A DNA stretch of 64,000 bases from the NCBI GenBank assembly GCA_028532855.1, contig JAQQAL010000010.1, forward strand, positions 62,001-126,000. The letters are read 5' to 3'. Below are positions 30,708-37,410 of the stretch, piece after piece. The notes under the pieces were generated by a model, which was not told the origin of the DNA, made no database searches, and worked only from the letters and a program-made list of their open reading frames with translations. A program made the translations under genes and the position numbers. This stretch comes from Candidatus Thalassospirochaeta sargassi. Lineage in GTDB: Bacteria; Spirochaetota; Spirochaetia; UBA9216. Each line of letters starts with the position of its first letter. Positions within the stretch are counted from its first letter, which is position 1.

Positions 30708-31640
30708 ATGAATAATGCTATGAAAACATCTCTCCTGGATGAAGCATATAGTTGTTTTAATAAGGGCTTATTTGGAGAGTCGGCAAAAATTTTGGATAAA
30801 GCCCTTTCAATCGATTTCGAAGATGATAGAATTATATGCGCTCTGAAATGTGCGAATTTCTGGAAAGGAAAAGAAGAAAAACTGGAGTCAATCTCCGATC
30901 ATTTCGCTAAGGGGGAATTTCTCCTAAAGGAATGGATTAACTTCTCTTCCTTTTTCAGCGGCTTCAGTGAGTCGGATGAGAAATGCCTGAACACAATCAG
31001 GCAGTGGTGTTTCGGAAACGCACTGAAAGCATATGAGAAGGTCTTTTATGATTCGGGGGGGAATGATTCAGGAATCCTTTTCAGAATAGGACGCTGCTAC
31101 AAGAGTATCGGCGATTACGAAAACGCTTTGAGTTTTCTTGAGCGGACATTCAGGCTGCAGAAAGAGAACCCGACGGTAATTGCGGAACTTGCAGATTGTT
31201 ATGCACTTATAAATGAAGTCAAAACTGCAAAGATCTTCTTCAGAGAGGCATTTTTTATTGATCCTCAGGAGATCGAATTCGCCTTCCTCGAATCAATGCT
31301 GATTGAGAGGCTGAGCGGGCAGTTGAAAGATAAGGGGTTCACTGGAAATGACGCCAAGGAATGGCTGCCTGTTTACGGTGTGGTATACGGCGTTTTCAAT
31401 ATTAAACGTGAACTGAAACCCCTTGAGCTTGGAAAGCTCAAACAGTCTATATTTTCGTATGAAAATAGACTTGACGAAAACGGTGAATCCGGTCCGGAAA
31501 CGATGCCGAGACTGTTGAACTATTATTTCAGATTGGTAGATCACTATATTTGCGTGGGGGAAGAACGCGTAAAGATAGAAGACATACTTAGAAAGATAAA
31601 AAGACTCAATAATGAGATCTTTATGGAGTACATTAACTAG
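30708..31640 (+). CDS. Cytoplasmic TPR protein, unknown function
   Basis: A 310-residue soluble protein without signal peptide or membrane helix. TPR motifs are seen at about 10-45 (AYSCFNKGLFGESAKILDKALSID) and about 120-200 (LFRIGRCYKSIGDYENALSFLERTFRL; AELADCYALINEVKTAKIFFREAFFIDP). The first ATG is used; ATG at 30720 is an alternative. It precedes the TPR-GreA fusion gene by 12 bp and shares its promoter. A role as a partner of that fusion is inference from position. Confidence 0.75.
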   Translation: MNNAMKTSLLDEAYSCFNKGLFGESAKILDKALSIDFEDDRIICALKCANFWKGKEEKLESISDHFAKGEFLLKEWINFSSFFSGFSESDEKCLNTIRQWCFGNALKAYEKVFYDSGGNDSGILFRIGRCYKSIGDYENALSFLERTFRLQKENPTVIAELADCYALINEVKTAKIFFREAFFIDPQEIEFAFLESMLIERLSGQLKDKGFTGNDAKEWLPVYGVVYGVFNIKRELKPLELGKLKQSIFSYENRLDENGESGPETMPRLLNYYFRLVDHYICVGEERVKIEDILRKIKRLNNEIFMEYIN

Positions 31641-31652
31641 CAGGAGTGAAGA

Positions 31653-34346
31653 ATGTCCGCAGATTGCGTGAAAACTATTACCGAAATTCTAAATGAAGAG
31701 AAATGGACGCGAGCAACGCTCAACAACTATTCGATTAATAATTTTAAAGAACTTGATGCTCTTATCAAGCTTGCTTATGAAGAAGAGCTTCAGACCGAGG
31801 TCAAGGAACTCTGTGATGAGCATCTGACACATACAAAGAACAGTATTGCCGCCCTATATATCTCAGGTATTCTGGGCTTGAGACGCCAGCTTATAGATGA
31901 TACGAATCTTGTTATTCTGATAACGATATTTGCAGATAATCATAAGTGGAATATTGTCGAATTTCTCTGTAGCAGCATCCTCGAGTTCGGTGAAAATAAA
32001 TATGCTTTGCGAACACTCGCCGACTGTTATGAAAATGAAAACGAGGAAGACAAGAAGTTTGAAGTCTGGGAAAGACTTATAAAGGTTGATTACGAAGAAG
32101 CTGAAATTGTTAAGGTTCTCGCTGAGAAACGGGAAGAAGACGGAGATATTGAAGGTGCAGTTGAACTGTATAAGAAAGCAATTCATCGATTTGTAAATAA
32201 AAAGCTTTTCAGCAGTGTTAAGGAAATATGGAGTAAGCTCATCCAGTATTCACCTGAAGAAGTCGACTTTTTTGAACATGTAAACCGGAAGGTAAGCACT
32301 ATAATAAGCGATGAGCGTGCATCTCAGCTACTCGAGGATCTTTACGGCTACTATAAGAGTCAGGAAGACTGGAGCAGATGTATCGATATACTTAAAGAAA
32401 TTCTGATGTACGATTCGAAGAATGCCTGGGCCCGTAAGGAAATTACAGACAGTTATAAGGCTAAATACAGCTACCATAGTCAGCTTGATGAGTATATTCG
32501 TCTTTCTAACCTTAATCAGAGCTGGAGAAACGTTCATGATGCGATTGCCGATTTTGAAAAGCATATTTCGTTTGATGTGGGCTCATTTGTAAGCCATAAA
32601 GCCTGGGGTATAGGTAAAATCAGAAAAATAAACGGCGATGAGATTACAATCGACTTTGTTAAGAAGCGGGATCACAAGATGTCGCTGAAAATGGCTGTAA
32701 ACGCCCTTACAAGTCTTGCATCTGATCATATTTCGGCTCTCAAAGTTAGAAAAAAGAAAGAAGTCCTGAAAAATAAGATAAAGAGTGATGTTCCATGGGC
32801 TCTTAAGATTGTAATAAAGAGTTTTGATAATGCTGCAAACATGAAGCAGATCAAAGCTGCCATTGTTCCGAGTATTCTTACCCCCGGTGAATGGTCAAGC
32901 TGGAGCACGCAGGCAAGAAACATACTGAAAGAAGATCCTGTATTCGGTAATCATCCCGACAAGATTGACGTATTCATGGTCAGGGATAAACCGATATCAA
33001 AAGAAGAGAAGATATACAACAAATTCAAGGCAGAGAAGAATTTCTTCAACAAGATAAAAGCCCTTGATGATTTTGTTAAGATAAGTGATCCGGAATCGGA
33101 TTTATTCAACGAAATGTTCACATACTTTGCAAACCTGCTGAAATCCTACACTAATGCTGATGAGCAGGTGGCAGCAAGCTTTTTTGTAGTTAAGAAGCTG
33201 ATTGATCAGTATCCCTTTCTGAACTCAGCTGAGTTTAACCTTGATTTTCTTAATCTCATTGAGAACATTGAGGATCTTGAGTCGGTATACGTGGGTATTG
33301 ACAATGCAGACATCAGAAAGCAGTTTCTAATTGCGCTTAAACAAAAGGAAGAATGGCCGGACATATATGTAAGGCTTTTTCCGAAGGCTATGTCAACCTC
33401 AATCATCGACGAGTTGTCAAATTCCGGACACCGCGAAAAGATAGAAGCACTTTTTCTATCAATCGCTGACAGATATAGAGAATTCCGTGAAACTTTCATA
33501 TGGATTGTTAAGAATTACGTTTCTGAAAAATGGTGTGAAAAACATAATGTGAGCTATGAAAAAATACTCATTAACATGATTCACCTTCTTGATATTACTT
33601 ACAGGGAAATATCAGATAAGCGTGATGTCAGTGACAATAGAAGATTGAATAAGCAGATTCTTACCTTCCTTATTAAGGATGAGAACCTTGTTAATTATAT
33701 CAATGAAGCGGATCAGGATTCTGTAAACAGAATATATACCCTGATTTCTGATGTTAAAGACCTTGACGTGAAACTCAAGCAGGAGCTTAAACAGCTTATA
33801 AAAGAACGATTCAAGGGCTTCAAGTTCTACGATGAGGAATCTCCCAAAGCTGATGTCAAAGCGGCTGTTCGCGGTCTGCTTGTTTCTGAAAAAGCTTTTA
33901 AAGAAAAACAGAAAGAACTTAAACATATTATTGAAGTCGAAATACCGACAAACTCAAAGGAAATTGGTGCAGCCATTGAGCTCGGTGACCTCAGTGAGAA
34001 TGCGGAGTACAAGGCTGGTAAAGAAAAGCAGGAACTTCTCCAGATTGCAGTTGGTAAACTTCAGGAAGATATTGATAAAGCGAAGGTTATTGATCCCAAA
34101 TCAATTACAAACGATAAGATAGCCTTTGGAATTGTTGTTACTCTTAAAAATAATATCAGCGGTGAGAATGAGGTTTTTACTATCATGGGCCCGTGGGAAT
34201 CTGACCCCGCAAAGAATATTATTTCATACCAGTCGCCGTTTGCCGGTGAACTTCTTGGTCATGGAAAGGGCGAACAGCTCAAATTTACAATTAACGAAAG
34301 AGAATACGATTACAGCGTAGAGGAGCTTGTTACAGCTGATTTCTAA
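31653..34346 (+). CDS. greA: GreA transcript-cleavage factor fused to large TPR/Tudor-like N-terminus
   Basis: An 897-residue fusion. About residues 1-300 are helical repeats of TPR character. About 307-356 form an SH3/Tudor-like segment (FVSHKAWGIGKIRKINGDEITIDF) resembling the RNA-polymerase-binding C-terminal Tudor domain of PcrA/UvrD. About 360-735 are helical. About 740-897 are a full GreA: a coiled coil with the catalytic tip ELGDLSENAEYKAGKE (Asp779 and Glu782 match the E. coli cleavage residues) and the C-terminal polymerase-secondary-channel domain. GreA rescues backtracked RNA polymerase. Similar long GreA proteins are annotated in Borrelia and Treponema. A GGAG ribosome-binding site precedes the ATG. 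Confidence 0.93.
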   Translation: MSADCVKTITEILNEEKWTRATLNNYSINNFKELDALIKLAYEEELQTEVKELCDEHLTHTKNSIAALYISGILGLRRQLIDDTNLVILITIFADNHKWNIVEFLCSSILEFGENKYALRTLADCYENENEEDKKFEVWERLIKVDYEEAEIVKVLAEKREEDGDIEGAVELYKKAIHRFVNKKLFSSVKEIWSKLIQYSPEEVDFFEHVNRKVSTIISDERASQLLEDLYGYYKSQEDWSRCIDILKEILMYDSKNAWARKEITDSYKAKYSYHSQLDEYIRLSNLNQSWRNVHDAIADFEKHISFDVGSFVSHKAWGIGKIRKINGDEITIDFVKKRDHKMSLKMAVNALTSLASDHISALKVRKKKEVLKNKIKSDVPWALKIVIKSFDNAANMKQIKAAIVPSILTPGEWSSWSTQARNILKEDPVFGNHPDKIDVFMVRDKPISKEEKIYNKFKAEKNFFNKIKALDDFVKISDPESDLFNEMFTYFANLLKSYTNADEQVAASFFVVKKLIDQYPFLNSAEFNLDFLNLIENIEDLESVYVGIDNADIRKQFLIALKQKEEWPDIYVRLFPKAMSTSIIDELSNSGHREKIEALFLSIADRYREFRETFIWIVKNYVSEKWCEKHNVSYEKILINMIHLLDITYREISDKRDVSDNRRLNKQILTFLIKDENLVNYINEADQDSVNRIYTLISDVKDLDVKLKQELKQLIKERFKGFKFYDEESPKADVKAAVRGLLVSEKAFKEKQKELKHIIEVEIPTNSKEIGAAIELGDLSENAEYKAGKEKQELLQIAVGKLQEDIDKAKVIDPKSITNDKIAFGIVVTLKNNISGENEVFTIMGPWESDPAKNIISYQSPFAGELLGHGKGEQLKFTINEREYDYSVEELVTADF

Positions 34347-34361
34347 ATAATCGGAGTCGAA

Positions 34362-36011
34362 ATGAAAAAAAGTATACTGATAGTCTTACTTATCCTGATT
34401 ACGTCGGCATCCGTTTTCGGTGCCGACAGAACGGATATGATTATACTGCTGGATAATTCGGTAAGCGTTCTGCCCTACTACGATAATATCCAGAATTCCC
34501 TGATAAAGCGTATAATCTCCGAGCATTTATTACCTGGAGATACCTTCAGTCTTATAACCTTCGCAGATTATCCTGAGGTCGAGATCTCGAGGGAAATAAG
34601 GAATGATGAAGATATAAGCGAGGTTCTTGCATATTCAGCTATACTCCAGCCGATGGGCAATCATACCGATCTTGTTCTTGCGCTGAGGTTTCTCTATAAA
34701 TACGCACTTGATCTACCTTTAAACAATCGAAAAAAAATTGTTATTTTAACCGACGGAATACACGATCCCCCTCCGGGAAGTTCTTATATTATTGATTCTG
34801 ACGCTGTACGGGCGGAGATTGAAAAGGCTTCTGCTGATATACACCGTGAGGGATGGGACGTTTCTATCGTCGAACTTGAAGACGGTCCTGAAGAAATAGA
34901 AGCATTGACAGGTGAAAATAGAACTGATGTTATTGATACAGTCTCACAGACACTGGGAAGTAAGCCTAGCGCCTTTGTGAACGACGGCACAGATATGGCA
35001 GGTATTGCACTAGGTATTCCTCTTGTTGGTATTCCTTCTCATTTAGGAGAATCATCCGGGGAACTTAAGGTTCCACTCAGCATAAAAAACCGAAGCAACG
35101 AAGCCCTGCTCTTCAGTCTCTCCGCCGTAAACTCTGATGGAAATGACATACTAGCCGAAAAGGCATCGATCAGGCTTGACCCTGGTGCGGAGGATGTTCT
35201 TGATATGAAGTTGAAACTTCCCGCAGAACTCGCTCCGGGAGAATACTCTGATGAAATTAATCTGAAACTCATCGGCGGGCTGAATACTGAACCCAAGACA
35301 TTGAAACTTAATTATACCCTTATCGAGAAAGGCAGCCTGAACCGGGGTCTTGAATTCATTCTTGACTGGCGGGTTATTGCTGTAATTGTAGCAATCATTA
35401 TCGCTGTAATTATAATTCTGCTTATTAAACGAGCAGGTACAGGCAGGATCGGAGGGTATTATGAAAATGAAGACGGTGAAAAACTAACGCCTCTGGATAT
35501 CAAACATGAAGACGAAGCATCTGTTGAAGAAAAAGCTGTTAAAGAAGAAGAATCTGAAAAGCGTGAGCCAGAAGAATATCTGATTGCAGCCATGGCGTCT
35601 GAGTCGGAGGATGTAATCCCGCACAAGAAGAACCGTCCTGTGCAGATGCTTGTATACGGCCAGAATACTAAACTAGGTATTTCTAACGTAAAATGGCTTG
35701 GTCTGAACAAAAAGCGCAGTATCGGTAGTTCGAGTTCTTCAATCTTCAGGATTTTCTTTATTAAGGTTCCTTCAGTAATTGCACATATTGAATGTACCGG
35801 TGATGATTTCATCCTTACTCCCGTAAAGGAAGAATTCTTTCCTGATTTGAGCGGACCCCTGCATAATTGTCTGAATAAAAAGATCAAGATTGTCAGTCAG
35901 GAGAACAAGATGTTTTATATTGAGTTCAGGCAATGGATTTCAGAACTTGAGAAACTTAACAGACTTTTATCAATGACTAAACACAGCGGTTCACCGGATA
36001 TGGAGTTCTAA
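34362..36011 (+). CDS. vWA-domain membrane protein with possible degenerate FHA-like C-terminus
   Basis: A 549-residue protein. It has a signal peptide (ILIVLLILITSASVFGAD), then a von Willebrand A domain with a complete MIDAS (DNSVS, the Thr of GNHTD, LTDGIHD). A beta-sandwich-like region follows at about 220-325, then one transmembrane helix (VIAVIVAIIIAVIIILLI), an acidic linker, and a cytoplasmic domain of about 130 residues. The stretch RSIGSSSSSIFRIFF...VPSVIAHIECTGDDF loosely follows an FHA layout. The vWA domain should be periplasmic and bind a ligand through a metal ion. It is cotranscribed with the greA fusion (15-bp gap). Confidence 0.75.
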   Translation: MKKSILIVLLILITSASVFGADRTDMIILLDNSVSVLPYYDNIQNSLIKRIISEHLLPGDTFSLITFADYPEVEISREIRNDEDISEVLAYSAILQPMGNHTDLVLALRFLYKYALDLPLNNRKKIVILTDGIHDPPPGSSYIIDSDAVRAEIEKASADIHREGWDVSIVELEDGPEEIEALTGENRTDVIDTVSQTLGSKPSAFVNDGTDMAGIALGIPLVGIPSHLGESSGELKVPLSIKNRSNEALLFSLSAVNSDGNDILAEKASIRLDPGAEDVLDMKLKLPAELAPGEYSDEINLKLIGGLNTEPKTLKLNYTLIEKGSLNRGLEFILDWRVIAVIVAIIIAVIIILLIKRAGTGRIGGYYENEDGEKLTPLDIKHEDEASVEEKAVKEEESEKREPEEYLIAAMASESEDVIPHKKNRPVQMLVYGQNTKLGISNVKWLGLNKKRSIGSSSSSIFRIFFIKVPSVIAHIECTGDDFILTPVKEEFFPDLSGPLHNCLNKKIKIVSQENKMFYIEFRQWISELEKLNRLLSMTKHSGSPDMEF

Positions 36012-36024
36012 TTTATAGGTCAGC

Positions 36025-37410
36025 TTATTCAAGCTGTTCGAGGGCTCCGAGGGCTGCTTTTCGAACGGCGTTGTTTACCTTTTCATCAGTAAGCTGCTCA
36101 AGTCGTTCATTCATTGTTTTGAGTCCGTTCAGCTGTATTCCTCTTATACCGTAAATCTTGATGGCCACGTCCTTATGATTCAACATCATCTCAAAAAGTG
36201 AGGCAAGTCCGGAATGTTCCGTTTTACTGAGGAACTGACAGGTGTAGCTTAGAACAGGTGAACTGTCTTTCTCCCATTCCTCGTTCAGTACGCCGGTTAT
36301 AACCTCAAGAGAACCTTTTATATCTTTTTCAATGATAATCTGAGCAGCCATGGTTCTTACTGACTGATTGGTATTACTCTTCTTATACAGTTCCTGTAAA
36401 AACTCAATAGCCGTTGCATCGCCTATTTCGCCCAAAGCCTTTACAGCGGCGAGTTTAACATTGTTTTCCGGGTCTTTTTTGGCCTTATATATTAGAATAT
36501 CAACGGCATCAGAACTTTGCATCTCGCCAAGGGCCTCAGCAGCGCTTACCCGAACACGCCAGAACGAATCCCTTAGTGATTGAATGAGGGTCGCTTCAAT
36601 ATCTTCACCCTCGAAAGAGGCCAGCGCTTTAACAGCATAGGATCGCAAATAGGTATCACTGTCCTGAAGCGCGTTTTTAACAACCGGCAGAGCATCGACA
36701 TGTCCTATCTTTCCGAGAGCCTCACAGGCCGTCCATCGCCATGATTTTTCCTCATCAACATCATCCAATATATCAATAAGGGTATCCAGAGCCTGTTCGG
36801 AACCGATTTCGCCGAGGGCCCTAATTATTGTGGGTTTAAGCTCATCGTAGTAATCGTCGTCATCAAGGAGATCAAGAAGCGGGTCAACGGATTTCTCACT
36901 GCCGCATTTCCCTAATGCTGTTAGAGCGGCTGATGCAAGGGTTTTTGTATCATGATCAACCAGCTGAAAAATAACATCTTCGGCATCTTCGCCGGGATAT
37001 GCAGAATAATACCTGAGCGAAGCCTGAAGAGTATTGAATGACTCGTCTTCCCAGTTTTCTATCCTGACGGCAGCACTTTCGGCTGCTTCACCGTAATCGA
37101 TTTTAATGAAATAATCGACAGCTGCATCCATAATTGCTGAATTGGTAGTTTGATCATAGATTTTAGCCACGTCTTCAGCATAGATTGCGTCTTCCTCCTC
37201 GGTAATTTTTTCTATAAGAGTAATAACTTCAGAGTCTATTCCGTATTTTAGGGTTTCACGCCTTTCTTCAGTAAGGGAGATGAGTTCTTCCTTCTCTTCC
37301 GAGGTTTTATCATCTGTTGTATCTGCTGAAACGGATTCATCCGCAGCAGTAAAAGAAAATGGCATTAGCAAAAGAAAAGATATCAGTATAAGCCGGTGTA
37401 CACTATTCAT
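36025..37410 (-). CDS. Secreted HEAT-repeat protein
   Basis: A 461-residue protein with a signal peptide (LILISFLLLMPFSFTAAD) and about eight to ten HEAT repeats (for example SAALTALGKCGSEKSVDPLLDLLDD, VSAAEALGEMQSSDAVDILIY, LAAVKALGEIGDATAIEFLQELY). These repeats form an alpha solenoid used for protein binding, expected here in the periplasm. No catalytic residues are evident. It overlaps murJ by 4 bp and is the last gene of the tgt-murJ transcript, converging with the vWA gene across a 13-bp gap. Confidence 0.82.
   Translation of the reverse strand: MNSVHRLILISFLLLMPFSFTAADESVSADTTDDKTSEEKEELISLTEERRETLKYGIDSEVITLIEKITEEEDAIYAEDVAKIYDQTTNSAIMDAAVDYFIKIDYGEAAESAAVRIENWEDESFNTLQASLRYYSAYPGEDAEDVIFQLVDHDTKTLASAALTALGKCGSEKSVDPLLDLLDDDDYYDELKPTIIRALGEIGSEQALDTLIDILDDVDEEKSWRWTACEALGKIGHVDALPVVKNALQDSDTYLRSYAVKALASFEGEDIEATLIQSLRDSFWRVRVSAAEALGEMQSSDAVDILIYKAKKDPENNVKLAAVKALGEIGDATAIEFLQELYKKSNTNQSVRTMAAQIIIEKDIKGSLEVITGVLNEEWEKDSSPVLSYTCQFLSKTEHSGLASLFEMMLNHKDVAIKIYGIRGIQLNGLKTMNERLEQLTDEKVNNAVRKAALGALEQLE

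Follow-up and report, generated by a model that had tools for sequence, protein, structure and literature searches.

The stretch of DNA analysed here, referred to as the window, is a 64,000-nucleotide segment of Candidatus Thalassospirochaeta sargassi. Within it lies the gene for a long GreA protein, flanked upstream by the gene for a TPR protein (Table 1). The GreA frame starts with ATG and is free of internal stops, and residues 312–335 of its product read FVSHKAWGIGKIRKINGDEITIDF. Reading frame and translation thus confirm both the gene and the motif reported in the initial annotation. The product is a full-length member of the family PRK14720/NF011309, the match extending over residues 6–895. 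The TPR protein said to be encoded just upstream is present as well, and in 53 of the 78 relatives with enough flanking sequence, GreA-less forms (see below) included, its gene is the immediate neighbor and runs in the same direction.

Table 1. Features of the long GreA locus (window coordinates).
Feature	Position	Strand	Evidence
TPR protein, candidate partner	30708..31640	+	12 bases upstream of long GreA; TPR_8 1.9e-09
Long GreA protein, 897 aa (PRK14720/NF011309)	31653..34346	+	NCBIfam 1073.8 bits against a cut-off of 714; AlphaFold2 mean pLDDT 88.8
TPR-like helical array, N-terminal, residues 1–290	31653..32522	+	Helices throughout the AlphaFold2 model; family profile against designed TPRs 1.3e-33; single-sequence Pfam TPR weak
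Predicted PcrA/UvrD-type Tudor (SH3-like) barrel, residues 307–356	32571..32720	+	AlphaFold2 strands; PDB fold ranks 1–7; hhalign 91.9%
His315 to Trp318, equivalents of PcrA His681/Trp684	32595..32606	+	Alignment of relatives; PcrA mutants (PMC5397179)
Second helical region, residues 357–735, without Pfam family	32721..33857	+	Model helices; PRK14720 match; weak PRK06330 match
GreA domain, residues 741–897	33873..34343	+	PF03449 and PF01272; fold match to E. coli GreA 1grj
GreA cleavage tip, Asp779–Glu782	33987..33998	+	Read from translation; D 72/73, E 72/72

The GreA portion is straightforward. Its N and C domains match PF03449 and PF01272 at 2.2e-16 and 1e-18, respectively, and its fold resembles that of E. 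coli GreA (1grj; TM 0.80 by target). The coiled-coil N domain, the globular C domain and an acidic tip with Asp and Glu are all found. The tip residues, Asp779 and Glu782, lie within GDLSENAEY. Among relatives with a residue at the column, Asp779 is conserved in 72 of 73 and Glu782 in all 72; the earlier claim of an intact cleavage tip is thereby supported by computation. Besides the long fusion, no protein carrying a GreA tip was found in the genome. A second PF01272 protein, of 163 aa, is missing the tip; it has a GreA/GreB C-domain and looks Rnk-like by eye. The fusion is therefore the single cleavage factor that the search brought up. Judged from its sequence, the long protein is most likely a GreA transcript-cleavage factor built on a TPR/helical scaffold, and it is predicted to stimulate cleavage.

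The scaffold is less readily classified. The full-length AlphaFold2 model, built with 76 relatives as input, consists of helices between residues 4 and 305. Although the TPR array is weak in single-sequence Pfam searches, the match of the family profile to designed TPR proteins, together with the helical model, bears out a helical/TPR scaffold, as the initial annotation had proposed. For residues 357–735, a Pfam search returned nothing above cut-off. A fold search with the full model retrieved mostly generic TPR proteins and GreA, and was uninformative on the segment between the two helical regions, which is considered next.

A barrel is predicted at residues 307–356, the segment on which the initial annotation had staked its reading of a PcrA/UvrD-type Tudor domain. 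The refuting outcome that it had named for the structure, a prediction lacking an SH3/Tudor barrel there, did not occur. In the full-length model, strands at residues 312–315, 319–327, 330–335, 341–344 and 353–355 form a five-stranded barrel with a block pLDDT of 91–93, and residues 296–372 modelled alone, from a 78-sequence alignment, adopt the same fold. When the segment was searched against 350,542 PDB chains, the top seven were all PcrA/UvrD Tudors (5dma, three chains of 9dqs, 7egt, 6yi2 and 7egs), with TM scores by target of 0.66–0.87 in six of them; the best superposition, on 7egt, has a TM of 0.87 by target, 1.3 Å and 33% identity. The Foldseek E-values of the isolated barrel are modest (0.0085–0.033), and the ranking of folds is the stronger argument. 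Sequence profiles point the same way. A PDB sequence-profile search of 177,635 sequences has UvrD and PcrA Tudors in its first two places, and the C-terminal end of the pcrA model TIGR01073 aligns to the segment. Against 14 PcrA/UvrD tails, hhalign gave 91.9% with a score of 32.1, whereas 100 shuffles reached a maximum score of 16.1 and at most 7%. Neither column shuffles nor sliding windows elsewhere in the protein gave comparable hhalign scores, and chance similarity is rejected.

In Pfam searches by member over 78 family segments, CarD_TRCF_RID is matched by 61, PF21196 (PcrA_UvrD_tudor) by 54 (best 1.8e-5) and DUF3553 by 40 (best 2e-6). The Tudor of the long GreA protein itself stays below threshold in every library searched: PF21196 scores 15.6 bits with the full-length protein and 20.4 bits with the segment against a gathering cut-off of 23.9, and PF02559 scores 17.5 bits with the segment against a cut-off of 23. 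A search of 60 spirochaete genomes with PF21196 hit the same gene in at least 27, as verified by coordinates, and one relative passes the cut-off at 24.8 bits. Taken together, the models and the profile comparisons strongly support the Tudor reading for residues 307–356; that is, computation supports both the fold and the homology. The likeness to the PcrA/UvrD Tudor (PF21196; 5dma, 7egt, 6yi2, 9dqs) comprises the fold, the V-x-H-x-x-[WF]-G-x-G motif, the cage positions H and W/F, and a strand with a terminal Phe. The domains differ in location, since the PcrA/UvrD Tudor sits at the end of a helicase and the spirochaete Tudor within a helical scaffold, and in the replacement of Lys712 by His.

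Studies of the helicases indicate which residues of the Tudor matter. RNAP binding by PcrA is poor in every one of the single mutants at H681, W684, K712 and L714 (PMC5397179); in UvrD, the aromatic cage consists of H678, F681, W709 and Y714 (PMC7585439). Alignment of the motifs places UvrD H678 at H315 and F681 at W318. Gapless alignment from the shared Phe (UvrD F702, F335 here) places K708 at H341 and L710 at M343. Among 82 relatives, position 315 is His in 80, and position 318 is aromatic in 72 (Trp in 64, Phe in 8), Trp and Phe being the residues of PcrA and UvrD. H341, in place of PcrA Lys712 and UvrD Lys708, is His in 69 of the 82, and the M343 position, corresponding to PcrA L714, is Met, Ile or Leu in 80. 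To summarize, of the four RNAP-binding residues of PcrA, the His and Trp are kept, the Leu is conservatively replaced by Met, and the Lys is replaced by His. As read from the alignment, the putative partner-binding face is conserved, except for the key lysine. Among 50-residue stretches compared over the 73 fused relatives, the Tudor segment ranks second in conservation, exceeded only by the surroundings of the GreA tip. The mean majority-residue fractions are 0.594 for the Tudor, 0.494 for the TPR array, 0.416 for the second helical region, and 0.559 and 0.528 for the two GreA halves. A motif in the second most conserved segment is not expected to be there by chance.

The long GreA family of spirochaetes is already known; the Tudor within its scaffold is a strongly supported reading. 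The family model PRK14720/NF011309 is named for GreA alone, with no mention of a Tudor, and the barrel is shared by the entire family rather than peculiar to this stretch. Our literature searches turned up no paper that says what the long region ahead of the GreA domain does in spirochaetes, and nothing relevant on a GreA–Tudor fusion. Of 296 Spirochaetota genomes, 291 have a match to the family model, which in some of them covers just the GreA domain. TPR-Tudor proteins without GreA, mostly of about 740 aa, occur in families f19, f25, f27, f28, f36 and f53. Their genes sit beside the same upstream TPR gene, and a separate short GreA is found in most of these genomes. In a tree of residues 1–730, the nine GreA-less sequences represent one change of state with a support of 73, so that one fission or fusion event may account for them. 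The existence of split TPR-Tudor and GreA forms shows that the Tudor need not be covalently joined to GreA.

A related architecture is described by PRK06330/NF004969 (transcript cleavage factor/unknown domain fusion), which we take to consist of chlamydial proteins. It combines a C-terminal GreA with a related helical N-terminal part and aligns to residues 235–879 at 3e-49. It is shorter (718 positions), the first TPRs are missing, and it gives no match to the isolated Tudor segment. Because of this alignment, it is uncertain, from sequence comparison, whether the architecture is spirochaete-specific, and the spirochaete-specific hub proposed in the initial annotation is overstated.

The C-terminal Tudor of PcrA and UvrD binds RNA polymerase. 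By analogy, this suggests that the scaffold Tudor may serve as a second grip of GreA on polymerase, and a three-step arrangement can be proposed. The Tudor barrel would grip an exposed β-hairpin on the RNA polymerase β subunit. The scaffold would keep the complex together and present a surface for a partner, e.g., the upstream TPR protein, by inference only the strongest candidate for that role. In this way, the coiled coil of the C-terminal GreA domain would stay near the secondary channel, where Asp779 and Glu782 would promote cleavage of backtracked RNA. Docking, docking site and partner are what we infer here, and we consider this account about as likely to hold as to fail.

The docking site is the difficult point. 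On polymerase, the PcrA Tudor attaches to the β SI1 domain at a TGE hairpin, the helicase interaction motif of the VDPETGEIL type (PMC8318588). This motif was not found in SI1 of the RpoB of this genome. Among 25 spirochaete RpoBs it is strictly present in 3, with two further near matches; that is, it is recognizable in about 5 and absent in about 20. Its loss or degeneration in most sampled spirochaetes also bears on the polymerase binding of PcrA itself in these organisms. UvrB of this genome keeps a near-perfect hairpin motif, LHAVTGEVL, whereas the RpoB motif is lost. In a scan of 30 UvrB loci, a partial count in that the region was located in 19 and not in the other 11, the TGE motif is present in 1 of the 19 readable UvrBs and absent in 18. 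Contrary to expectation, spirochaete RpoBs and UvrBs thus mostly lack the helicase interaction motif. As for the helicase, the 724-aa PcrA-like protein of this genome has a divergent Tudor-like tail of its own, YHEDYGSGII, in which Tyr takes the place of the Trp; given that the tail is retained, transfer of a Tudor from PcrA to GreA is unsupported.

An unlikely but coherent alternative is that the barrel docks on polymerase β1, as do CarD and the Mfd RID, rather than on SI1. CarD and the Mfd RID (PF02559) have an SH3-like, RNAP-binding barrel with weak profile similarity to the segment; besides the CarD_TRCF_RID matches given above, hhalign gives 78% for spirochaete CarD and 47% for the Mfd RID, and at the Mfd/CarD site, a TGE-type turn is seen in most of the aligned spirochaete β1 loops. 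In the fold ranking, however, these barrels come below PcrA/UvrD, the first Mfd appearing at ranks 15–16, and the segment has the PcrA/UvrD positions of the aromatic cage, while the Mfd RID is without a cage (PMC7585439). Moreover, CarD-like and Mfd-like proteins are already encoded in the genome.

A broader proposal, which we judge distinctly unlikely, is that the Tudor links backtrack rescue with a repair or surveillance partner, replacing or competing with PcrA/UvrD, via a docking site new to bacteria. It is also improbable that the barrel serves the helical scaffold as a structural insert, kept for folding and partnerless. Core positions probably account for many of the invariant residues (F301, G321, F335, A348 and L352), and the helix before the barrel is conserved along with it. 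Yet His315, the aromatic residue at 318, and His341, which lie on what is the partner-binding face in PcrA, are conserved nearly as well as the core, which is unexpected for a pure spacer. Quite improbable, too, is a Tudor that does not hold polymerase and instead recruits a repair or other partner, such as UvrB or another hairpin-bearing protein, to GreA-engaged polymerase. The UvrD Tudor binds UvrB as well (7egt; PMC8318588), and the state of the two hairpins in this genome favors UvrB. Against this, the target would be non-conserved and the Tudor conserved, as seen from the 18 UvrBs lacking TGE, and the divergent Tudor of this genome's PcrA could account for the UvrB motif. Least probable by far is binding of nucleic acid close to polymerase: at 1.9–3.8 μM, the C-terminal Tudor of UvrD binds DNA in both single- and double-stranded form (PMC7585439), but the RNAP-binding role of PcrA/UvrD Tudors is better established.

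We return to the tethered GreA as the preferred reading. The long GreA is conserved across a phylum with important pathogens, and a Tudor with most of the polymerase-binding face of PcrA leads to a concrete hypothesis, namely that a second domain keeps the Gre factor on polymerase, and this is open to a simple test with a two-residue mutant. It also raises the question of where a Tudor would dock, given that most of the phylum has lost the known motif from RpoB.

Two further genes complete the neighborhood. A VWA-domain protein is encoded directly downstream of GreA (34362–36011), an adjacency found in part of the class only. It is followed, on the opposite strand, by a HEAT-repeat protein (36025–37410) with a hydrophobic, signal-like N-terminus, which is often encoded near the GreA gene.
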